Both the position numbers and the translations under genes were made by a program. 64,000 nucleotides of DNA from an uncultured Verrucomicrobiales bacterium (GTDB lineage Bacteria > Verrucomicrobiota > Verrucomicrobiia > Verrucomicrobiales > DEV007): contig CALAHF010000163.1 of the NCBI GenBank assembly GCA_937891465.1, positions 62,001 to 126,000 on the forward strand, written 5' to 3'. Positions 8,343-54,305 of this stretch are shown in pieces. The stretch's first letter is position 1. Each line of letters begins with the position of its first letter. The notes under the pieces are model-generated. The model searched no databases, was not told where the DNA came from, and was given only the letters and a program-made list of their open reading frames with translations.

Positions 8343-8526
8343 GGTGTGTATTTTTAAGGCGAAAATAATTTCCCTGACAGCAAAAACACGAACGTTAATC
8401 CGTGAAGACATCGTATTTGCACCGCCTATTTTTCCGTTTTCCAGGGCAATATCATCCAAATTCGCCCCTCATCGCAACATTGACCATCGCCCTGAATTGC
8501 GTCGATTTCCGACCCGCCATTTTTAA

Positions 8527-8558
8527 CCAATGTGACGAAAAATTTTACGTCACATTGG
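8527..8558. promoter_or_regulatory. 32-bp near-perfect palindrome between the divergent hydrolase gene and gltB
   Basis: The arms CCAATGTGACG (8527-8537) and CGTCACATTGG (8548-8558) are exact inverted copies around the A/T spacer AAAAATTTTA. The sequence is well placed to be an operator. Its right arm runs into the -24 element of the putative sigma-54 promoter of gltB, so a bound protein would affect that promoter directly. The half-sites TGTGA and TCACA are 14 bp apart, not the 6 bp of a CRP site. Confidence 0.7.
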
Positions 8559-8570
8559 CACGGCTAGTGC
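8555..8570 (+). promoter_or_regulatory. Putative sigma-54 (RpoN) promoter of gltB
   Basis: TTGGCACGGCTAGTGC contains a -24 element TTGGCACG and a -12 element (GTGC in place of TTGC). The key GG and GC dinucleotides have the standard spacing. It ends about 32 bp before the gltB start, leaving room for a transcription start near 8582. RpoN control of glutamate synthesis would fit nitrogen regulation. Confidence 0.55.
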
Positions 8571-8601
8571 GTAGCTATTCTCGAGACGAACACAAACATT
8601 T

Positions 8602-11600
8602 ATGAGCGATTCGAAACGCCCTCATCCTTACATCCACATCCCCGAAGTCAGCGAAAAAACGCTTCACCGCCCCGAAATGGAGCGCGATGCCTGTGGTGTG
8701 GGAGTGGTTTGCCACATTAAAGGAGAGCGCAGCCATCGTATTTTGCGGTTGGGACTCGATTCGGTAAATAACGTGACTCATCGCGGTGCGCTCAACGCGG
8801 ACATGAAAACGGGCGACGGAGCCGGTGTTTCGACCCATTTGCCACACAAAATTTTTCTTCCAATTGCGGAAGAGATGGGAACGAAGCTGGAAAGCAACGA
8901 ACAGCTCGCAATTGGCGTTTTCTTTCTCGCAGATAAAGATTCCACAGATTATGTGAAGGCCAAAGTTCTCGCTGAAGGCTGCCTGCGGAATCGCGGAATC
9001 GGTATCATCGGTTGGCGTGAAGTTCCAACCAATCCAAAAGCTCTGGGTGATCAGGCGATTGAGACGATGCCTGAAATTTTGCATCTTCTATTGAAGCGTC
9101 CCGAAGGAATCGATGACGATCAGTTTGAGCGTGAGCTTTTTCTTGCTCGACGTGATATCGAAATCAAATCGAAGAAAGAGGCGATCGAGGATTTCTACAT
9201 CCCTTCGTTGAGCCATCGCTTGATGGTCTATAAAGGATTCCTCGTCGCAACTGCGCTGGAGAAATTTTACGACGACCTTCAGAATCCAGATTACGAGACC
9301 GGTGTTTGTCTCTACCACCAGCGCTTTTCGACCAACACGTTTCCAACGTGGGCACTCGCTCACCCTTTCCGGATGCTTTGCCACAATGGTGAAATCAACA
9401 CCGTGCGCGGAAACCGGAACTGGTTGAATTCGCGAATCGGACAGTTCGAAAGCGACGTTTGGGGCGACGACATGCATCTCTTGAACGAGATTATCGATCC
9501 GGACGGCTCGGACTCGGCAAGTCTCGATTCAGCGCTCGAATTGCTCGTTTTGTCAGGACGATCGGTCCCGCATGCCATGGCGATGCTTGTTCCGGCCGCG
9601 TGGCGAATCGATCCGTTTACGCCGCAGCCGGTTGCCGATTTCTACAAATACCACGCGACTTTCTGCGAGCCATGGGACGGTCCAGCAGCACTCGCATTTT
9701 CTGACGGACGCACCGTTGCTGCTTCGCTGGACCGGAACGGATTGCGGCCAGCCCGTTATAAAATTACCGATGACGGAATTTTTAGCCTGGGATCAGAGGT
9801 CGGCACCTGCCATCTCGATGATGAGACCGTTATCGAAAAAGGACGTCTTGCTCCCAGTGAAATGTTGGTGATTGAAATGGAAACGGGCGAAGTTTTTCAC
9901 AACACCGAAGTGAAAAACAAGCTCGCAGCGATGCAGCCTTACGGGAAGTGGCTCGACGATAATCGTATTCCTATGAATGACCGAGTTTCGCCGAAGCCGG
10001 ACGTGCCCACGGAGCCAGTTTTCGATCCGGTGTTGCTTTCTCGAAATCAAGTTGCTCATGGCTATAATAAAGAAGAGATCGGTTTATCGCTCGCGCCGAT
10101 GGTGAAAACCGGTCAGGAAGCGGTGAATTCAATGGGAGATGACGCAGCACTTTCCGTGTTGTCGCTCAAGCCCAAGCTGCTCTACACCTATTTCAAACAA
10201 CTTTTCGCGCAGGTTACCAACCCGCCGATTGACCCGATTCGCGAATATCTCGTAATGTCAATCGAGGCCGATCTCGGGCCGGAGCGAAATTTGCTAGCGG
10301 AAGTGCCTGAAAATGCGCGCGTCGTTCACCTGCAATCACCGTTTCTTTTCCCGCATCAATTGAATGCGCTGGGAACGTTTGAAGGCTTCAGCGCGACGAC
10401 TTTGGATACAACCTGGTCTGTCAGCGATGGGCCGGAAGGTTTAGAAGCTGCGGTCGACAAACTTTGCGCCGAAGCAGAAAACGCAGTCGATACCGGAACT
10501 TCCTTCGTGATTTTGTCAGACCGCGCCATCAGCAATGAGCGGGTCGCAATTCCTATTTTAATGGCGACTGCGGCAGTTCATCATCATCTCACGCGGATGA
10601 AAAAGCGGATGTTGACCAGTCTAGTTGTCGACACGGGTGAGCCTCGCGAAACGCACCACATGGCCTGTATCATTGGATTCGGTGCCACTGCGATCTGCCC
10701 CTATTTGGCTCATGCAACCGTTCGCCAGATGGTCGAGCACGATCCGAAGAACAAGTTCGACGGCATGACAGCGAACGAAGGCTTGCGTCGTTTTCACAAC
10801 GGCTTGGAAAAGGGCGTTCTGAAAATCATGTCCAAAATGGGCATCTCTTATCTGAACAGCTATCAGGGAGCACAGATTTTCGAAGCGGTCGGTATTGGCG
10901 AGGAAGTCATCGAAAAATGTTTCCCGGGAACGCCTTCACAAATTTCCGGAATCGGTTTCAAAGAAATTGCGGCCGATAGTCTGGAACGGCATTCGAACGC
11001 ATTTAGCAATGCTGCAACCGCTGATGGCGAGCCTCTGAAACTCGATGATCCGGGTTATTTCCGCTATCGTCGCGACGGTGAAACTCACTCTGTTACCGGT
11101 CCCGTAATTAAGAATTTCCATACGTTCGTAAAATCCGGCGATCAGGCCGATTACGAAACGTATGTTGAAGATCTGAAATCGCACAATCCGACCGCGATTC
11201 ATGACATGTTCGAATTGGTTCCGCATGGCGATCCGATTCCGATTGATGAAGTGGAGCCAATCGAAGATATTCGCCGCCGTTTTACCACTGCCGCGATGTC
11301 GATGGGCGCGATTTCTCCCGAAGCTCACGAAGCTCTCGCAATCGCAATGAACCGAATCGGTGCGAAATCAGATTCTGGTGAAGGCGGCGAAGATTCCCGT
11401 CGTTTCAAGCCGTATCCGAATGGTGATTGGGGAAATTCCAAGATCAAGCAGGTCGCATCCGGTCGATTTGGCGTTCATGCCGAATACCTGATGTCTGCCG
11501 AAGAGATCGAAATCAAGATGGCGCAAGGCGCGAAGCCCGGTGAGGGCGGACAGCTTCCGGGTCACAAAGTGAACGGCCTCATCGCGCGGCTTCGTCACAC

Positions 11601-13182
11601 CCAGCTCGGCGTCACCCTGATTTCACCTCCGCCACACCACGATATTTATTCGATCGAGGATTTAGCGCAGCTGATTCACGATTTAAAAGAGATCAATCCA
11701 CGTGCCAAAGTAACGGTGAAACTCGTTGCCGAAAGTGGTGTCGGAACCGTTGCCGCAGGTGTTGCCAAAGCAAACGCGGACGTGATTCTCATTTCCGGCC
11801 ATGACGGTGGAACAGGAGCCTCACCAATCAGCTCGATTAAAAACGCAGGACTTCCCTGGGAACTTGGCGTTGCCGAAACCCAGCAGGTTCTCATGATGAA
11901 CGGCCTTCGTGGACGCGTCACTCTCCGGACTGATGGCGGAATGCGGACCGGATTGGATATCATCCACGCTGCGATTCTCGGGGCGGAAGAATACAACTTC
12001 GGAACGATCGCTCTGATCGCACTTGGCTGCGTTTACGTTCGCCGTTGCCACCTCAATACCTGCCCAGTTGGTATCGCGACGCAGGATCCAAAATACCGCG
12101 CCAAGTACAAGGGCGAGGTTGAGCACGTTGTCAATTTCTTCAACGCGGTTTCACAAGAATGCCGCGAGCACATGGCCAAGTTGGGCATACGCAAGTTGGA
12201 CGATCTCATTGGCCAGACGAAATACATCAAGCAGCGTCACGTGCCGGATCATCCAAAAGCGAACCTGCTCGATTTCTCGAAAATCCTCGCCGATGTCTCC
12301 GAATTGTCTGATAAAGACATGCCTCGCATCTGTCAGCAGGATCGAAACGATGGCCTTCACGCCGCGCCGCTCGATGATAAAATCATCGGTGACGCCCGTA
12401 TCGCGATTCGCGAAAAGACGCCAATCACACTGAACTACGATGTGAAAAACACGTATCGGAACATCGGAACCAAACTGACGGGCATGATTGCTGATCAGCA
12501 TGGAAACCACGGGTTGCCGAATGGAACCATCAATTTGAATCTTACCGGAAGTGCCGGTCAAAGCTTCGCAACCTTTCTCTGTGGCGGCATTCGCATCACC
12601 CTCGCCGGTGAAGCAAACGACTACGTTGGAAAAGGAATGTGCGGCGGCGAAATCATCGTTCACCCGCCTGCAAAACGCGCATTTGAGCCTAGCGAAAACT
12701 CAATCATCGGAAACACTGTGATGTATGGTGCAACCGGTGGAACGCTTTACGCAAACGGCCGTGCCGGCGAGCGATTCTGCGTTCGGAACTCCGGTGGAAC
12801 CGCGATTGTTGAGGGTATTGGCGACCACGGTTGCGAATACATGACCAACGGACTCGTCGTAATCCTCGGGCCAACCGGAGTGAACTTCGGAGCCGGAATG
12901 AGCGGAGGCCGCGCCTTCATCTACGACACCGAATACATCTTCGAGAAGACTTACAATCCCGAGATGGTTGAAATCGTTCGGGTGGATCATGGCAGTCAGG
13001 ACGAAGCCGATTTGAAGAAACTGGTTTATCAGCATCTCGAATACACCGACAGCGCTCGTGCGAAAGAAATCCTCGACGATTGGGACACCGCTCGTCAGAA
13101 ATTCTGGCTCGTCCGTCCCAAATCAACCGTCGCTGATGCCCCTGCCATTGCAAAAACGGAGAAGGCAGCAGCTGCGAAGTGA
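8602..13182 (+). CDS. gltB: Glutamate synthase large subunit
   Basis: The protein has 1526 residues and makes glutamate from glutamine and 2-oxoglutarate. The Ntn-type glutaminase starts at Cys31 in the motif ERDACGVG, so a 30-residue propeptide must be removed. HRGALNADMKTGDGAG follows in the same domain. The FMN-binding synthase domain shows SDSGEGGED, SGRFGVHAEYL and KPGEGGQLPG. A 3Fe-4S cluster motif is visible in CHLNTCPVG, and the C-terminal beta-helix domain contains GMCGGEI and similar repeats. Length and architecture are those of bacterial GltB. No gltD small subunit is adjacent, so the electron donor is unclear. The upstream region carries a palindrome and a sigma-54-like promoter, and two hairpin repeats follow the stop. 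Confidence 0.97.
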   Translation: MSDSKRPHPYIHIPEVSEKTLHRPEMERDACGVGVVCHIKGERSHRILRLGLDSVNNVTHRGALNADMKTGDGAGVSTHLPHKIFLPIAEEMGTKLESNEQLAIGVFFLADKDSTDYVKAKVLAEGCLRNRGIGIIGWREVPTNPKALGDQAIETMPEILHLLLKRPEGIDDDQFERELFLARRDIEIKSKKEAIEDFYIPSLSHRLMVYKGFLVATALEKFYDDLQNPDYETGVCLYHQRFSTNTFPTWALAHPFRMLCHNGEINTVRGNRNWLNSRIGQFESDVWGDDMHLLNEIIDPDGSDSASLDSALELLVLSGRSVPHAMAMLVPAAWRIDPFTPQPVADFYKYHATFCEPWDGPAALAFSDGRTVAASLDRNGLRPARYKITDDGIFSLGSEVGTCHLDDETVIEKGRLAPSEMLVIEMETGEVFHNTEVKNKLAAMQPYGKWLDDNRIPMNDRVSPKPDVPTEPVFDPVLLSRNQVAHGYNKEEIGLSLAPMVKTGQEAVNSMGDDAALSVLSLKPKLLYTYFKQLFAQVTNPPIDPIREYLVMSIEADLGPERNLLAEVPENARVVHLQSPFLFPHQLNALGTFEGFSATTLDTTWSVSDGPEGLEAAVDKLCAEAENAVDTGTSFVILSDRAISNERVAIPILMATAAVHHHLTRMKKRMLTSLVVDTGEPRETHHMACIIGFGATAICPYLAHATVRQMVEHDPKNKFDGMTANEGLRRFHNGLEKGVLKIMSKMGISYLNSYQGAQIFEAVGIGEEVIEKCFPGTPSQISGIGFKEIAADSLERHSNAFSNAATADGEPLKLDDPGYFRYRRDGETHSVTGPVIKNFHTFVKSGDQADYETYVEDLKSHNPTAIHDMFELVPHGDPIPIDEVEPIEDIRRRFTTAAMSMGAISPEAHEALAIAMNRIGAKSDSGEGGEDSRRFKPYPNGDWGNSKIKQVASGRFGVHAEYLMSAEEIEIKMAQGAKPGEGGQLPGHKVNGLIARLRHTQLGVTLISPPPHHDIYSIEDLAQLIHDLKEINPRAKVTVKLVAESGVGTVAAGVAKANADVILISGHDGGTGASPISSIKNAGLPWELGVAETQQVLMMNGLRGRVTLRTDGGMRTGLDIIHAAILGAEEYNFGTIALIALGCVYVRRCHLNTCPVGIATQDPKYRAKYKGEVEHVVNFFNAVSQECREHMAKLGIRKLDDLIGQTKYIKQRHVPDHPKANLLDFSKILADVSELSDKDMPRICQQDRNDGLHAAPLDDKIIGDARIAIREKTPITLNYDVKNTYRNIGTKLTGMIADQHGNHGLPNGTINLNLTGSAGQSFATFLCGGIRITLAGEANDYVGKGMCGGEIIVHPPAKRAFEPSENSIIGNTVMYGATGGTLYANGRAGERFCVRNSGGTAIVEGIGDHGCEYMTNGLVVILGPTGVNFGAGMSGGRAFIYDTEYIFEKTYNPEMVEIVRVDHGSQDEADLKKLVYQHLEYTDSARAKEILDDWDTARQKFWLVRPKSTVADAPAIAKTEKAAAAK

Positions 13183-13201
13183 TTTTCGATTTTCTACGAA
13201 C

Positions 13202-13234
13202 CAATAGGGTTGATTCAACGAACAGACCCTATTG
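13202..13234. repeat. Hairpin repeat, AATAGGGTT variant
   Basis: CAATAGGGT (13202-13210) and ACCCTATTG (13226-13234) form a perfect 9-bp stem around a 15-nt loop, TGATTCAACGAACAG. It begins 20 bp after the gltB stop and is directly followed by a second copy with different arms. Confidence 0.8.
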
Positions 13235-13257
13235 AATCGAAAACCAATTTCGAACAG

Positions 13258-13286
13258 ACAGGGTTGATTCATCGAACGAACCCTGT
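13258..13286. repeat. Hairpin repeat, ACAGGGTT variant
   Basis: ACAGGGTT (13258-13265) and AACCCTGT (13279-13286) form a perfect 8-bp stem around GATTCATCGAACG. This copy lies 24 bp before the GTG start of the next gene, so it would be part of that gene's leader. The tandem arrangement with the previous copy shows that C and T at the third arm position are compensated in the other arm, which keeps the pairing. Confidence 0.8.
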
Positions 13287-13309
13287 TAGATCGTGAAAAC
13301 AAGATTTCT

Positions 13310-14380
13310 GTGAGTTCTTCAAAATTAAATCCCTCCAACGACCGACGTGATATCACGATCGGTGGAACCGCGTTCGAAGCCGGCAAAAAAGGTGTCGTCG
13401 AGCTCCCCATTGGCTCGCTCATCAATTATCAACCGGTATCGATGCCGGTTCATGTTCGTCGGGGAAAGAAAGATGGACCGTGTTTGATTGTGACCGCCGG
13501 CTTGCACGGTGACGAAATTAATGGAATCGAAATCGTTCGGCGACTTTTGAGATCGCGACTTCTCTCCGGCTTGATGGGGGATCTCATTCTCGTTCCGATC
13601 GTTAACATTCCCGGCTACCTGTCCCGTTCGCGCTATTTGCCGGACCGCCGTGATCTGAACCGCCTCTTTCCAGGATCACCGAAAGGATCGCTGGGCGGTC
13701 GCATCGCCTACACTTTTTCGGACGAAGTGATGAAGCACGGCACCCACGCAATCGATATGCATACGGGAGCGATCCGGCGCCCCAATTTGCCGCAAATTCG
13801 ATACACCGAAGGTGACGAGACCGGCTTTGGCATGGCCAAAGCGTTTGCTCCGCCGGTTGTGATGTCCAGCGCGCTTCGAGAGAGTTCGCTTCGCGCTACT
13901 TACTTTGAGAAAAAAATCCCCTCGATCATTTACGAAGCAGGTGAAGCCCATCGCCTCAATGCGGCATCGGTCAGATTTGGATTTCGCGGCGTGATTTCCG
14001 TCATGCGCCATCTCGGAATGCTTCCTCCATCCAAGAAACCGCAGAAGCGACATATTAAAACGATTGTTGCCCCGACTTCATTTTGGGTACGTGCGCCGCA
14101 GGGAGGAATTTTTTCTCCCTCAACCAATCTCGGACAGGCAACCATCGCTAACAAAGAAATCGGGGTCGTTGCTGATCCATTTGGTCGGAAGGAATTCGAA
14201 ATCTTGTCTCCGTCTGACGGAATCATCATCGGAATTTTGCGGGAAGCGACCGTGGACGAAGGGGACGCTCTGTTTCACATCGCCACGTCGCAAAACCCTG
14301 AAAAAGAGGAGGCTCAGATCCAAAAAAGTGAGGATCACCTCGAACACGCCGAAGAGGAATTCCCCGGGGATATCAACTGA
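13310..14380 (+). CDS. Succinylglutamate desuccinylase/aspartoacylase (AstE/AspA) family protein
   Basis: This is a 356-residue zinc-dependent carboxypeptidase-fold deacylase. The zinc ligands appear as H66 and E69 in GLHGDEING and H151 in IDMHTGA. DLNRLFPG at 115-122 and YEAGE at about 216 are further family blocks. The start is GTG (13310) and no upstream in-frame ATG precedes the domain. The C-terminal lipoyl-like beta segment and acidic tail (about 290-356) are usual in members outside the arginine-catabolic AstE group, so amino acid N-acyl or peptide substrates are possible. A hairpin repeat sits in the leader. The gene ends exactly where the convergent lipid kinase gene ends. Confidence 0.85.
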   Translation: MSSSKLNPSNDRRDITIGGTAFEAGKKGVVELPIGSLINYQPVSMPVHVRRGKKDGPCLIVTAGLHGDEINGIEIVRRLLRSRLLSGLMGDLILVPIVNIPGYLSRSRYLPDRRDLNRLFPGSPKGSLGGRIAYTFSDEVMKHGTHAIDMHTGAIRRPNLPQIRYTEGDETGFGMAKAFAPPVVMSSALRESSLRATYFEKKIPSIIYEAGEAHRLNAASVRFGFRGVISVMRHLGMLPPSKKPQKRHIKTIVAPTSFWVRAPQGGIFSPSTNLGQATIANKEIGVVADPFGRKEFEILSPSDGIIIGILREATVDEGDALFHIATSQNPEKEEAQIQKSEDHLEHAEEEFPGDIN

Positions 14381-15376
14381 TCACACTACGACCCGAAGCG
14401 CGGACGGAAGCACGTGCATCGTTGTCGGTGTTGATGCGATAACATCGCCATCGACTTGAATTTCCATGGGTGGATCGCTTTTCACCTCAATTTCGGTGGC
14501 CGTCCAATGGCTCACCAATTCAGACGCGTCCAGCCAGGGCAACACTTCGCCAAGCGGATTTTTATCCAAGCCCATCATCTGACGAGCCAACTGAATCATC
14601 GCTTCCAGATTGTTTTTTTTCAAAATAAACACATCGAGCAAACCGTCGTCGATTCCCACTTCGGGAGCCAACGCAACACGACCAAAGCCGACTCGCCCCG
14701 AATTTGCGACAACAAAAGCAACGCCGCTTTCAGAAATTTCCCGATCGCCGTCTAATTTAATTTCGTAGCGCACCTCTTTACTTTCCTGAAGAGCTTTGAT
14801 CCCCGCAAAAACGTAAGCCCATTTTCCGAACTGATCTTTCAGCTCCCGCGTCGCATCCTGAACCACTTCGGACTCAAAGCCTGCTCCGACTCGAAGCAAA
14901 AACGGGCGCTCACCAATCATTCCGACATCAATCGCCCGAACCCTGTATTCGTCCTTGCCACATAACAAATCACAGGCTCGTTCCAATTTTTCTGGAATCC
15001 CCAACTCTGCAGCAACCACATTTCCCGTTCCTCCAGGTAAAATTAGAAGCGGCACATTTGATTCCAGTAAACCGCCTGCCACTTCCATCACCGTGCCGTC
15101 GCCGCCATAGACACCGACCACATCCGCCCCGTTTTCCACCGCCTTTTCAGCCAGCGTATGCCCATCACCATCCCCATGGGTGATCGAAATTCCCCAACGA
15201 ATACCCGCGCTCCGAAAGTGCCGATTCAAAATCGCGAGAAGAGGAATCTTACGCGATGGAGCCGGATTCACGATGACATGAACACATTTCGGCTTGGGAT
15301 GTATTTCCGTGATTATAGGGCAATTTTCCGATGGATTTGGGCGGGTGGCGAGCGTTTTTTTAGGCCATGCAGCCAA
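14381..15376 (-). CDS. Diacylglycerol kinase family lipid kinase
   Basis: The product is 331 residues. The catalytic-domain motif GGDGT lies at 91-95 and the second nucleotide-binding motif PGGTGN at 114-119. Both are diagnostic of DAGK/sphingosine kinase and YegS-like lipid kinases, which phosphorylate membrane lipids on the cytoplasmic side. The start is uncertain. The frame given opens with TTG, overlaps the divergent esterase's upstream region, and has a poorly conserved first 30 residues. There is no in-frame ATG before the domain, so TTG or another rare start must be used. The stop codon abuts the stop of the convergent AstE/AspA-like gene with no bases between. Confidence 0.88.
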   Translation of the reverse strand: MAAWPKKTLATRPNPSENCPIITEIHPKPKCVHVIVNPAPSRKIPLLAILNRHFRSAGIRWGISITHGDGDGHTLAEKAVENGADVVGVYGGDGTVMEVAGGLLESNVPLLILPGGTGNVVAAELGIPEKLERACDLLCGKDEYRVRAIDVGMIGERPFLLRVGAGFESEVVQDATRELKDQFGKWAYVFAGIKALQESKEVRYEIKLDGDREISESGVAFVVANSGRVGFGRVALAPEVGIDDGLLDVFILKKNNLEAMIQLARQMMGLDKNPLGEVLPWLDASELVSHWTATEIEVKSDPPMEIQVDGDVIASTPTTMHVLPSALRVVV

Positions 15377-15399
15377 AACGATCTACTCCTATGTGCACG

Positions 15400-16302
15400 A
15401 TGAATCGATTCTGTTGGTTCGCAATCATCGCACTTGTCGCGACTTCGACGTTTGCCCAGGAAAAATCTGCCGCGTCGAAAAAGAAAAAAATGCCGAAAAT
15501 TCCTGAAGGCGTCAAAGTGATTCGCGACATCGAATATACCTCGCCCAACGGGATCTCGCTGAAGCTGGATCTGTATTTACCTGAAAAACCGACCACAGAA
15601 AAGCTCCCCGTGGTGATGTGGGTTCACGGAGGAGGCTGGAAAAACGGCAGCAAGGATAATTGCAAAGCGGCATTTCTCGCGGCTGAGGGAAATTTTGCCG
15701 CAGTCAGCATCAGCTATCGCCTTATCGGTTCAGGCAAGTGGCCAGATCAAATCAATGACTGCTACGAAGCGGTCCGTTGGGTTCGCAACAGTGCCAAAAA
15801 GCACGGACTCAATGGCGATAAAATCGGAGTCTGGGGAGGTTCTGCTGGCGGGCACCTCGCTGCCCTGATGGGGACACGCCCTTTTGATGGCGAAGAAAAA
15901 ACATCGAGTCGCGTTCAGGCCGTTTGTGATTGGTTTGGACCGAGCGAGCTGCTCACGATGCCGCCGAATACGATCGGCGAAAAGCGTACGCGGGCGATGG
16001 TCGAAAAATCCAACGGTGCGCTCCTGCTCGGAAAAACGGTGATGGACGTGCCGGATCTCGCGAACGATGCAAGCGGATTACATCACGTTTCAAAAGATGA
16101 TCCGCCGTTTTTAATCATGCACGGCGAACTCGATCCAGGCGTGCCACTTGAGCAAAGCCAAAAGCTTCACGATGCGTTGAAGGAAGCAGGCGTTCAGTTA
16201 GAATTCGTGATTGTGAAGGGCGCAGGTCATGGCGGGAAGGAATTTCAAACCGACACGGTGAAAGCCATGGTTCGGAATTTTTTCACAAAGACGCTGCGCT
16301 GA
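15400..16302 (+). CDS. Secreted esterase/lipase, BD-FAE-like alpha/beta hydrolase
   Basis: I chose ATG 15400 because it begins a typical signal peptide (residues 1-20, ATSTFAQ). Starts at 15367 and 15391 are also in frame. The 300-residue product has the oxyanion-hole motif HGGGW at 76-80 and the nucleophile motif GGSAGG at 146-151 with Ser148. The acid HGELDPGVP and the histidine GAGHGG lie near the C-terminus. The fold fits feruloyl or acetyl esterases that act on decorated polysaccharides. A lysine-rich stretch (residues 27-31) follows the signal peptide. Confidence 0.88.
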   Translation: MNRFCWFAIIALVATSTFAQEKSAASKKKKMPKIPEGVKVIRDIEYTSPNGISLKLDLYLPEKPTTEKLPVVMWVHGGGWKNGSKDNCKAAFLAAEGNFAAVSISYRLIGSGKWPDQINDCYEAVRWVRNSAKKHGLNGDKIGVWGGSAGGHLAALMGTRPFDGEEKTSSRVQAVCDWFGPSELLTMPPNTIGEKRTRAMVEKSNGALLLGKTVMDVPDLANDASGLHHVSKDDPPFLIMHGELDPGVPLEQSQKLHDALKEAGVQLEFVIVKGAGHGGKEFQTDTVKAMVRNFFTKTLR

Positions 16303-16449
16303 TTCCCTTCCCTTTTTCTTTGATTAAAGAAAATGGCAGTTCGAAAAATTTCATGAGTTTCGATTAGCCAATCGAACATGACTTCGACGAATACTGCACG
16401 TGGACCCGGTTTTACAAAGGGAAGAAGTCGAGTCGCAAAGTTCCAGCCG

Positions 16450-17583
16450 CTACTGCTGCTCTTTCTTGCTTCCGGGCCCACTTGCGTCGCGCGGAAGATC
16501 GATTCGACAAGTCGTTCCTTTTCCCTCTTCGCTGCTGATTCGAATATCGCCCTTGTGAGCATCAACGACAGACCTCACGATCGCCATACCGAGCCCGGTA
16601 CCGCTCGCTTTTCCATAGGTGACAAAGGGTTCAAAGATTTGTTCCAGCACTTTGTCGGGAATTCCACAGCCATTATCTTCAACCTCGAACCAAACGGAAT
16701 CATCGCTGGCTCCCCCCACCCGCAGCGTTAGGGTTCCTCCCGCCTCCATGGCTTCCGAGCCATTCTTGATGATGTTGCACAGCAATCGAATCAAGCGATT
16801 TCGATCAGCAACGATGTCGCCCTCATAGTCGATCTCGCGAATCACCGTGATTCCATCATTTGCTAGACTGTTGAGTATTTGGGTATCGATGGACTCGAGC
16901 AGCTCGGTCACGCTGGTGGCCTTCAGTTCCAGCTTAATTTCACCTTTTGAGTAGTCGAGCACCTCCTGAATCATCACCAGCATCTGATCCGTGGCGTCGC
17001 TGGTGAGTTCGCCCATGGTAACCAGTGCCTCATCCTCGGTATTCGACTTCAGATAGTGACTGGCCATCGAAATAGTGGCGATGGGATTGCGGAAATCGTG
17101 CACCATTGCACCCATCATCGTGCCAATCAGACTGAGCCGTTCCGCATCGATCAATTCATCGATGAAATGCGTGTTCGCCCTTTTTAACTGCGATGCAATT
17201 AGTCGGGTAAAATGCAGTGCTGCCTCGGGCGAATGACCCATCATCGCATGCAGACCGTCCCGGCCCAGAGTCCCGAGGACCGTTGCCCCCTTTGCGGTCG
17301 CACGGGCAGTTCGATGTTGTTCATCTTCAAGCAGCAGAGCCAATTCACCGAAAAAGTCACCCGGTTTCTTAACGGTCAGGATTTCCTGTTTTCCACCACG
17401 GCCTCTCTTGGAAATGCTCACTTCGCCTGAAGCGACCAGATACACGTTCTGACCCACCGCGCCCTCCTCGAATACGATGTCGCCGTCTTCGTAGTGACGC
17501 AATTTGATCGGAAGCTCCAACTGGTCGAGCTCATCCCCGGCGATGCCGGCAAAGAAGGCGCTATGCTTGAAAATATCGTCCAT
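16450..17583 (-). CDS. Sensor histidine kinase with N-terminal cyclic-nucleotide-binding domain
   Basis: The 377-residue protein has no signal peptide or membrane segment. Residues 10-130 form a cNMP-binding/Crp-like beta-barrel with the phosphate-cassette pattern FGELALL ... RTARA (78-94). The HisKA part has the phospho-acceptor H162 in VHDFRNP. The ATPase domain shows the N box NIIKNGSEAM, the G1 box DNGCGIP, FEPFVTYGK and GTGLGMAIV. It is therefore a soluble kinase that may respond to cAMP, c-di-GMP or another ligand bound by the N-terminal domain. No response regulator gene is adjacent. It converges with the esterase gene across a 147-bp gap. Confidence 0.92.
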   Translation of the reverse strand: MDDIFKHSAFFAGIAGDELDQLELPIKLRHYEDGDIVFEEGAVGQNVYLVASGEVSISKRGRGGKQEILTVKKPGDFFGELALLLEDEQHRTARATAKGATVLGTLGRDGLHAMMGHSPEAALHFTRLIASQLKRANTHFIDELIDAERLSLIGTMMGAMVHDFRNPIATISMASHYLKSNTEDEALVTMGELTSDATDQMLVMIQEVLDYSKGEIKLELKATSVTELLESIDTQILNSLANDGITVIREIDYEGDIVADRNRLIRLLCNIIKNGSEAMEAGGTLTLRVGGASDDSVWFEVEDNGCGIPDKVLEQIFEPFVTYGKASGTGLGMAIVRSVVDAHKGDIRISSEEGKGTTCRIDLPRDASGPGSKKEQQ

Positions 17584-17804
17584 AAAGTGCGTAAGCTGTT
17601 AAAGCGACTCTTGAATCGTAAGCTCCATCAATTAGATAAGCAAATTTCACGCCGACAAAAGACTCAAATTAGCGCATCCATGGCAATCCTACGACCAAAC
17701 AGGTAACTTCGCGCAGTCCGGTCAAGCTGAGCAGATTGTCGGTTTTGAGAGAATCTTCTCGGAATATGATTACATTCCATAGTAATCTCTCGTTCCTGAA
17801 AAGA

Positions 17805-18875
17805 ATGATGAAAAATCTAAAATTTACCGCCACCCTGTTCTCAACTTTTTTGGCGTTGGGGCTTTCCGCTTTCGGTGATGATGCAAAGCAACTTCCTGAT
17901 CCAGACGGAAAGCCGGCTGACATGAGCAAGCCGGTTCAAGTTTATATTTTGTTGGGCCAGTCCAATATGCTTGGCTTTGGAAAAATCACAGGCGGCGAAG
18001 GCTCGCTCGAACATGCCGTGAAAGAGAATGGGCTTTATCCTTATCTCATCGATGACGCGGGCAATTGGACCGAGCGAAAAGACGTCCGCAACGTCCGCGT
18101 GATGGGAAGCGGCACAGGCGGTGCAAAGCATTTCAACAACGAGTGGATGGCGATCGGTAAAGGAAAGATCGGTCCCGAAATCAGCATTGGGCATCACGTG
18201 GGACAGGCCACCGACGCGCCAGTGATGATTTTGAAGAGTTGCATCGGCAATCGCGCTCTCGGGTGGGATTTGCTGCCTCCTGGGAGTGAGGGGTTTGAAT
18301 TCACGGATTCAAAAGGGAAGACTTGGATTCACCCCGGATACAAAGGGTCGCCGGAAAAATGGGAAAAAGGCACCGAGCCGAAGAAGATTACCTGGTATGC
18401 CGGTATGCAATATGATGGCGACATTGCCCGTGCGAAAAGTGTCCTAGCTGAGCTCGAAAAATATTACCCCGACGCAAAAGAATACGAAGTCGCAGGTTTC
18501 TTCTGGTGGCAGGGAGATCGCGACAGTCGGAGTGCCGCGCTTTCCAGCCGATACGAAAAGAACCTCGTTCATCTCATCAGGCAGCTTCGCGAGGAATTCG
18601 ATGCGCCGAATGCGAACTTCGTAACCGCTTCGCTCGGCCAAACCGAGAAGGGCGCCACCGACGGCGGCGGAAAAATCCTCGATGCCATGCTCGCTGTTGA
18701 TGGCGCATCCGGAAAGTATCCAGAGTTCAAAGGCAACGTCGCCAGCGTCTACACGCACCCGCTCTCAAAAGGCGGGAGCTCCGGCGGTCACTACAGTGGG
18801 AATGCAGAGACTTACATGAACGTCGGCGACGCCATGGGTAGGGCGATGGTTGAGTTGTTGAAAACTGGAAAGTGA
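17805..18875 (+). CDS. Secreted sialate O-acetylesterase-like (SASA/SGNH) protein
   Basis: The ATG pair at 17805/17808 starts a normal signal peptide (residues 1-24, SAFGDD); the upstream frame adds no such feature. The 356-residue product has the SGNH block I motif GQSNM at 51-55 with Ser53, and a later WWQGD motif characteristic of the carbohydrate esterase group that includes sialate O-acetylesterase. Activity on acetylated sugars is inferred. The name does not prove a sialic acid substrate. It precedes an amidohydrolase gene on the same strand by about 90 bp. Confidence 0.87.
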   Translation: MMKNLKFTATLFSTFLALGLSAFGDDAKQLPDPDGKPADMSKPVQVYILLGQSNMLGFGKITGGEGSLEHAVKENGLYPYLIDDAGNWTERKDVRNVRVMGSGTGGAKHFNNEWMAIGKGKIGPEISIGHHVGQATDAPVMILKSCIGNRALGWDLLPPGSEGFEFTDSKGKTWIHPGYKGSPEKWEKGTEPKKITWYAGMQYDGDIARAKSVLAELEKYYPDAKEYEVAGFFWWQGDRDSRSAALSSRYEKNLVHLIRQLREEFDAPNANFVTASLGQTEKGATDGGGKILDAMLAVDGASGKYPEFKGNVASVYTHPLSKGGSSGGHYSGNAETYMNVGDAMGRAMVELLKTGK

Positions 18876-18966
18876 GTCCGGGTAACTCAAGATTGAGTGG
18901 CCGTGACGAATCGCGATTAACGGCATCGTTTGAGCGCGGAATCTGATATTACTACAAAAGCTAAAC

Positions 18967-20268
18967 ATGAAACTCGATTCCGACACCACCATCATCCGGA
19001 ACGGCCAACTGGTCGACGGAACGGGGAATCCCGCCGTTCCGAATGCGACTGTAATCGTTACTAACGGAAAAATCACTTACGCGGGTTTATCTGAGGCGGC
19101 ACCGCAGGCAGTGCCGGATGCTCGTGTCATAGACGCCAATGGCGGCACCATTATGCCCGGCCTCGTTGAGGCGCACTTTCATGCCACCTACTTTAACATC
19201 CTGGAGCTGCAGGATCTCGATATCAAATACCCGGTCGAATACGTAAGTCTTTTGTCCGCTGTAAACACCAAACTCGCGCTCGAATGTGGCTACACGGCGG
19301 CTCGCAGTGGCGGATGTCTATTCAATGTCGATGTGTGGCTGAGGCAAGCCATCGAAAGCGATCTCATCCCGGGCCCCCGTCTCTCAACCTCCGGTCGGGA
19401 GATTTGCAGTGCAGGCGGGCTAATGGACTGGAATCCGGAGTTCCGGAAAATCGGTATGGAGGGCCTCGTCTTCATCATCAACGGAGTCGAGGAAGCACGC
19501 ACCGCCGTTCGGGCTCTGGTAAAGGACGGCATCGAGTGGGTGAAAACTTATCCCACCGGCGATGCCGCTTCGCCAGACACGAATGATCACCACACGCTCT
19601 GCATGACCTTCGAGGAAATGGATGCTGTGGTGCAAACCGCGCATAATCACAAACTCAAGGTCACCGGGCATTGCCGCGCTACCGAGGGTATCAAGAACGC
19701 GCTCCGAGCGGGCTACGACTGTATCGAGCACGGCACTTTCATAGACGACGAAGGCCTCGACCTGCTACTCGAACGCGATGTGCCCTGCGTCCCTGCGCTC
19801 TACTTTGAAAAAGCCAGTATCCTGCGCGGCCCCGAGTTTGGCCTGCCACAGAGCGTTATTGATGGCCATCAGGAAACCCTCGACGGCGGCACCGATTCAG
19901 CGCTGCGCATCCTTCGCGCCGGTGGTCGCATCGGTCTCGGTGGCGACTACGGATTTGGCTGGAATCCGCACGGCGATTACGCTCGCGAAATCACGTTTTT
20001 CGTCAACGACGTCGGCTTCACGCCGCTGGAGGCTATCATGTGCGCTACGAAGACCGGGGCAGAGATCATGGGGCGGAGCGACGAATTTGGAACGGTCGAA
20101 GTCGGCAAGCTGGCGGACCTTCTCATCGTCGATGGCGATGTATTAAATGACATCAGTCTTCTCGAAGACCGCAGCCAATTTATCGCCGTCATGCAGGGCG
20201 GTGTTATCAAAGCCGGCCAGCTTACCCGAACCGAACACACCTGGGAGAACGCCACCAAAATGGGTTGA
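18967..20268 (+). CDS. Metal-dependent amidohydrolase
   Basis: The protein has 433 residues and no signal peptide. The amidohydrolase-superfamily metal ligands are in place: H70 and H72 in EAHFHAT, the bridging K193 in WVKTYPTGD, H235 in VTGHCRA, H255 in IEHGTF, and D327 in GLGGDYGF. This set matches the imidazolonepropionase/prolidase-like branch, whose members hydrolyse cyclic amides or dipeptides. The N-terminal beta-sandwich (IIRNGQLVDGTG) and its C-terminal return (LLIVDGDVL) are complete. It starts a same-strand run with the following hydrolase and sialidase genes, with visibly higher G+C than the genes before it. Confidence 0.88.
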   Translation: MKLDSDTTIIRNGQLVDGTGNPAVPNATVIVTNGKITYAGLSEAAPQAVPDARVIDANGGTIMPGLVEAHFHATYFNILELQDLDIKYPVEYVSLLSAVNTKLALECGYTAARSGGCLFNVDVWLRQAIESDLIPGPRLSTSGREICSAGGLMDWNPEFRKIGMEGLVFIINGVEEARTAVRALVKDGIEWVKTYPTGDAASPDTNDHHTLCMTFEEMDAVVQTAHNHKLKVTGHCRATEGIKNALRAGYDCIEHGTFIDDEGLDLLLERDVPCVPALYFEKASILRGPEFGLPQSVIDGHQETLDGGTDSALRILRAGGRIGLGGDYGFGWNPHGDYAREITFFVNDVGFTPLEAIMCATKTGAEIMGRSDEFGTVEVGKLADLLIVDGDVLNDISLLEDRSQFIAVMQGGVIKAGQLTRTEHTWENATKMG

Positions 20269-54154: not shown

Positions 54155-54305
54155 CGACGGAAACTAAAATAACGATTACAGTCTACGAAAGGGTAACTCA
54201 ATTCAGAGTTGAAGTTTCATAGCTTGGTTGTTGTGGCTGGGGAGGTCAGTTCCCGCTACGATCACTTCTTAAAAAACCTCTCCTGAACATAGGAGAGGTT
54301 TTTTT
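54155..54305 (+). ncRNA. Candidate small structured RNA
   Basis: A 150-nt stretch between the Nudix gene and the DUF1501 operon has paired elements in series: GAAACT (54160-54165) with AGTTTC (54213-54218), enclosing a hairpin AACTC/GAGTT (54195-54210). Then a bulged hairpin GTGGC-T-GGGGA / TTCCC-GCTAC (54233-54259) and a strong terminator (54271-54305). A TATAAA box (54143-54148) lies about 7-12 bp before the proposed start. The RNA would be independent of the Nudix gene, which ends about 100 bp earlier. No known RNA family was recognised. The region could instead be a long 3' UTR. Confidence 0.45.
54271..54305. terminator. Strong bidirectional intrinsic terminator
   Basis: AAAAAACCTCTCCT (54271-54284) and AGGAGAGGTTTTTTT (54291-54305) form a long perfect stem with a 6-nt loop, with a T run on each strand. 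It would end plus-strand transcription from the Nudix gene or the small RNA, and minus-strand read-through. Confidence 0.9.

Follow-up and report, generated by a model that had tools for sequence, protein, structure and literature searches.

Introduction

In the sigma-54/NtrC nitrogen regulons of enteric bacteria and others, a -24 TTGGCAC and a -12 TGC at the right spacing lie before the genes for PII and glutamine synthetase (glnA, glnB/glnK). The glutamine synthetase/PII and glutamate synthase operons of Geobacter sulfurreducens are predicted to be under the control of RpoN, and the glnB promoter of that organism was mapped by primer extension (PMC2725144). Palindromic sites placed over a core promoter element are known from Escherichia coli, in which ArgR boxes overlap the -35 elements of artJ and artP (PMC6640053). 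The transcriptome of a verrucomicrobial methanotroph covers glnA, gltB and NtrC homologues, and the gltB and glnA promoters are not treated in the passages found of that study (PMC3404531). A search of a literature library found no paper joining Verrucomicrobia, RpoN and glutamate synthase, and promoters under nitrogen control seem to have received little study in this bacterial group.

The locus described here lies in a 64,000-nucleotide stretch of DNA, referred to as the window, from the 5.97 Mb genome of an uncultured Verrucomicrobiales bacterium. It resembles the enteric systems in that the PII and glutamine synthetase genes are preceded by the same -24 and -12 letters with the same spacing, and in the presence of rpoN and of an activator with receiver, AAA and Fis domains. 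It differs from them in that a sigma-54 site also precedes the glutamate synthase gene, and in that NtrC-type sites were not found in the gltB, glnA and glnB upstream regions. Compared with G. sulfurreducens, the organism belongs to a different phylum and has separate glnA, glnB and gltB promoters, whereas G. sulfurreducens has a glnB-glnA operon.

The gltB locus

The gene for the large subunit of glutamate synthase, gltB (8602..13182, plus strand, ATG at 8602), encodes 1526 amino acids and was assigned from domain matches to GATase_2, Glu_syn_central, Glu_synthase and GXGXG, which make up the full large-subunit set in Pfam. The intergenic region before it is bounded by the start of a divergent gene for an alpha/beta hydrolase domain protein (PF20091; 6273..8342, minus strand). 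The small-subunit gene, gltD, is absent among the ORFs directly downstream of gltB (window 13182-20268), and the same genome has a second gltB-like gene, 46 % identical, at G000:C41:15492-20057. The start-codon surroundings of gltB (8589-8604) and glnB (L158 2608-2619) share ACAA(A)CATTTATG, and both start regions are without a clear Shine-Dalgarno sequence. Alignment with relatives suggests a degenerate remnant of a sigma-70-like promoter, TTGACC-N16-TCGATT, at 8482..8509 on the plus strand; a consensus scan for sigma-70 sites upstream of gltB in the window found none.

The -24/-12 element and the nitrogen gene set

The sigma-54 (RpoN) -24/-12 promoter element before gltB, TTGGCACGGCTAGTGC, lies at 8555..8570 on the plus strand and was assigned from its letters, from scans and from its recurrence. 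Its GG (8557-8558) and GC (8569-8570) are separated by 10 bp, which is the correct spacing, it is one mismatch from the consensus YTGGCACG-N4-TTGC, and 31 bp separate the -12 GC from the gltB ATG. The strict form TGGCAC-N5-[TG]TGC has one occurrence on both strands of the window, and a rough sigma-54 weight matrix ranked the gltB site higher than every one of 200 shuffled versions of its upstream region.

The sequence-only reading had claimed an RpoN promoter at this position, a claim that would have fallen had rpoN been missing from the genome. The gene is present as an ORF of 471 amino acids with the box ARRTVAKYRD (PF04552, E 7.3e-60), the element is repeated before glnA and glnB, and sigma-54 sites recur before gltB across the order, so that this part of the reading holds. 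Sigma-54 activators are represented by four strong PF00158 matches, with GAFTGA visible in three, and include a 479-amino-acid protein with a receiver domain, a Sigma54_activat (AAA) domain, a Fis helix-turn-helix and GAFTGA, which is encoded divergently from glnB/PII. A canonical sigma-54 site lies between glnB and this NtrC-type activator gene (L158 1000-2970). The site of glnB, TTGGCATCTGAATTGC, lies 43 bp upstream of the ATG, and that of the glutamine synthetase gene (glnA), TTGGCATGGGAGTTGC, 82 bp upstream of its ATG.

A whole-genome scan with YTGGCAY-N5-KTGC gave 19 sites against 24 for the reversed control. This total is no higher than that of the control, and what is informative is the identity of the genes that follow the intergenic matches. 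Only four of the 19 are not within called ORFs. Of these, one each precedes gltB, glutamine synthetase and glnB/PII; the remaining one (L239) has no clear gene downstream, as a longer ORF on the opposite strand starts there. The case for a real, nitrogen-related element rests most heavily on the fact that three of the four intergenic matches belong to glutamine synthetase, glutamate synthase and PII. When the upstream regions of gltB, glnA and glnB were compared, no shared inverted repeat or long word was found that could be an activator site.

The sequence at 8555-8570 very probably serves gltB as an ordinary RpoN promoter of the nitrogen type, forming a set with the glutamine synthetase and PII promoters. 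By analogy with established sigma-54 biology, RpoN holoenzyme would bind the -24/-12 element at 8555-8570, and when nitrogen is limiting the complex would be opened by an NtrC-type AAA+ activator, for which the receiver-AAA-Fis protein divergent from glnB is the best candidate, with the outcome that glutamate synthase would be co-expressed with glutamine synthetase and PII. The usual sigma-54 geometry predicts that the gltB transcript starts on the plus strand near 8582, approximately 12 nt after the -12 GC, which would give a leader of approximately 20 nt.

Recurrence and turnover of the gltB promoter in relatives

The gltB upstream regions of relatives were drawn from whole genomes of the family and order, and a strict pattern, [TC]GGCA[CT]-N7-GC within 150 bp of the gltB ATG, was applied. 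The strict site was present before gltB in 8 of the 16 genera tested (g1, the organism's own, and g4, g5, g20, g21, g24, g27 and g29) and not in the other half; the chance expectation, estimated from how often the pattern occurs in these loci, is 0.035 per region, or about 0.6 over 16. Genus g12 has TAGGAAC-N5-CCGGCTT before gltB, in which the GG-N10-GC spacing is kept. In genus g2 (L130-L150, many species), TTGGCAC-N5-CTGAGCRTA is conserved 65-98 bp before the gltB ATG. This g2 element has a consensus -24 and GA rather than GC at -13/-12, the string was found essentially only before gltB, and it may be either a tolerated variant of the sigma-54 -12 or a different binding site. The g2 motif was also considered as a general variant promoter and rejected, the other family-wide matches examined being coding or uninformative in appearance.

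These comparisons bear on whether the TTGGCAC...GTGC match before gltB is a chance match or the site of another protein instead of a sigma-54 promoter. Such an origin would suit the GA-variant element of the sister genus, confined essentially to gltB, and the genome-wide pattern count that equals its control, but it is unlikely, because canonical sites precede gltB in seven other genera as well as glnA and glnB in this genome. An RpoN promoter remains the preferred reading of the element.

In the sole other genome of the same genus (G001; L129 / L005), the -24 GG is lost through a 4-bp gap in the alignment of the gltB upstream region. The same region carries a sigma-70-like TTGACC-N16-TACAGT, of which the -10 is degenerate (TCGATT) in the window, and the g2 counterpart is TTGACC-N16-TAAACT. 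Of 74 family genomes, 63 have rpoN, G001 and most g2 genomes among them, so that the differences reflect changes at the level of the promoter and not loss of the sigma factor.

The 32-bp palindrome

A perfect palindrome without strand assignment lies at 8527..8558, with arms CCAATGTGACG and CGTCACATTGG that pair at 11 of 11 positions and a 10-bp spacer, AAAAATTTTA, that is all A/T; its function is unproven. The TTGG at 8555-8558 is common to the right arm and to TTGGCACGGCTAGTGC, giving a 4-bp overlap. The exact 11-bp repeat, the A/T spacer and the run into a GG/GC element before gltB are thus all as the sequence-only reading had described them, and its remark that the palindrome resembles no NtrC or CRP site agrees with the letters. 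A CRP/FNR-type operator (TGTGA-N6-TCACA) was rejected because TGTGA and TCACA are 14 bp apart in the palindrome and not 6, and an NtrC site (TGCACY-N5-rGTGCA) because the TGCAC...GTGCA core is absent from the arms. A mirror-image sigma-54 promoter on the minus strand was likewise rejected, TTGG being present and the GC one base off.

Two inverted repeats with arms of at least 11 bp and a loop of at most 20 were found in the window, against 0.53 expected from Markov shuffles. One such repeat anywhere in 64 kb is unremarkable; by the same rate, approximately 0.002 would be expected inside the gltB promoter region of approximately 260 bp. The other inverted repeat (54271-54304), perfect over 14 bp and with a T run at its end, is likely a transcription terminator.

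The palindrome before gltB was also considered as a terminator, or as an RNA hairpin within an extended leader whose transcription would begin at an upstream sigma-70 promoter; it folds as an 11-bp stem in RNA (z -2.2), and relatives carry the upstream sigma-70-like TTGACC promoter. Such a role is highly improbable: transcription from the sigma-54 promoter is expected to begin downstream of the palindrome, which speaks against a hairpin, the -10 of the upstream site is degenerate in the window and the consensus scan gave no sigma-70 site, and there was no Rfam match. As a terminator, the palindrome has no T run after it (the next letters are CACGGCTAG), and the upstream gene is divergent and points the other way.

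No second copy of the palindrome was found in the genome at up to 3 mismatches. The core TGTGACG-N10-CGTCACA at 2 mismatches matched 12 places in the genome against 6 for the reversed control, with one strand counted, and GTGACG-N4..26-CGTCAC matched 10 against 4. Two core matches were examined, and both touch coding regions: a 2-mismatch copy near the activator gene (C97:39550) is inside the glnB coding region, and an N10 copy (C55:22740) overlaps a glmS-like gene at its end. A search of 384 class genomes found the exact core at three places, including the one before gltB, and the reversed control also at a handful, and a regulon search across the genome and the class was set aside as giving no convincing enrichment. 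Neither the glnA nor the glnB promoter contains the palindrome, nor does the gltB promoter of any relative examined, including the same-genus G001, and the longest arm among the relatives' gltB regions listed is 9 bp. In the G001 alignment, the left arm falls in sequence that is missing there (gaps of 9 and 4 bp), and a part of the right arm, ACGTC, is kept. Because it is absent from the relatives examined and its left arm lies in sequence missing from G001, the palindrome is, on these alignments, recent or private to this genome.

The proposal that a regulator bound at the palindrome blocks RpoN found no backing in these searches, given a single copy, none at glnA or glnB, and no conservation in the relatives examined. 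It is still a possible, if tentative, reading that the palindrome is the operator of a dimeric regulator dedicated to gltB, which would act there alone, either as a repressor or as a competitor of sigma-54 RNA polymerase, because a dedicated operator could be single-copy. Its exact 11-bp arms have centres 21 bp apart, or two helical turns, it is placed over the -24 region, and the expectation for a region of that size is low. Against this stand the single copy in 5.97 Mb, the one-strand count of the core against its control, the lack of enrichment among the class genomes (two places beyond the window's own, with a similar control), the promoters of glnA, glnB and relatives' gltB that are without it, and the lack of any transcription-factor gene seen beside it. 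As at artJ and artP, the palindromic site lies over a core promoter element from which a bound protein would exclude polymerase, but the ArgR case concerns sigma-70, a known regulator and several targets, whereas the palindrome here is without a known regulator or second target. As a conjecture, a dimeric protein on the palindrome would cover the -24, exclude RNA polymerase and repress gltB. This repression step is no more likely than a non-functional origin, and its more specific form, in which a species-specific single-target repressor keeps sigma-54 RNA polymerase off the -24, is rather doubtful.

About an even chance is given to the palindrome having no regulatory role, arising by chance or by a template switch that copied the -24 side into an inverted left arm. 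This would account for a right arm that overlaps a constrained element and a left arm in sequence that the same-genus genome lacks, and it is consistent with the approximately 0.5 repeats of such size expected per window and with the absence of any conservation found; the perfect arms in the promoter region of a central gene and the A/T-only spacer speak against it. A private operator, chance and a template-switch copy all fit, and the non-functional origins, although unproven, are ranked first.

Conclusions

The promoter half of the original proposal is right and ordinary, being of a known kind (sigma-54 promoters of glutamine synthetase, glutamate synthase and PII genes), and the operator half is an unproven extra. 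If the single-target repressor were real, a second signal would act directly on the GOGAT step of the Verrucomicrobiota sigma-54 GS/GOGAT/PII regulon. The gltB promoter has turned over inside one family: this genome and other genera have the canonical sigma-54 form, g2 has a changed -12, and G001 has lost the site. The result is a concrete and testable set of three putative RpoN promoters, those of glnA, glnB and gltB.
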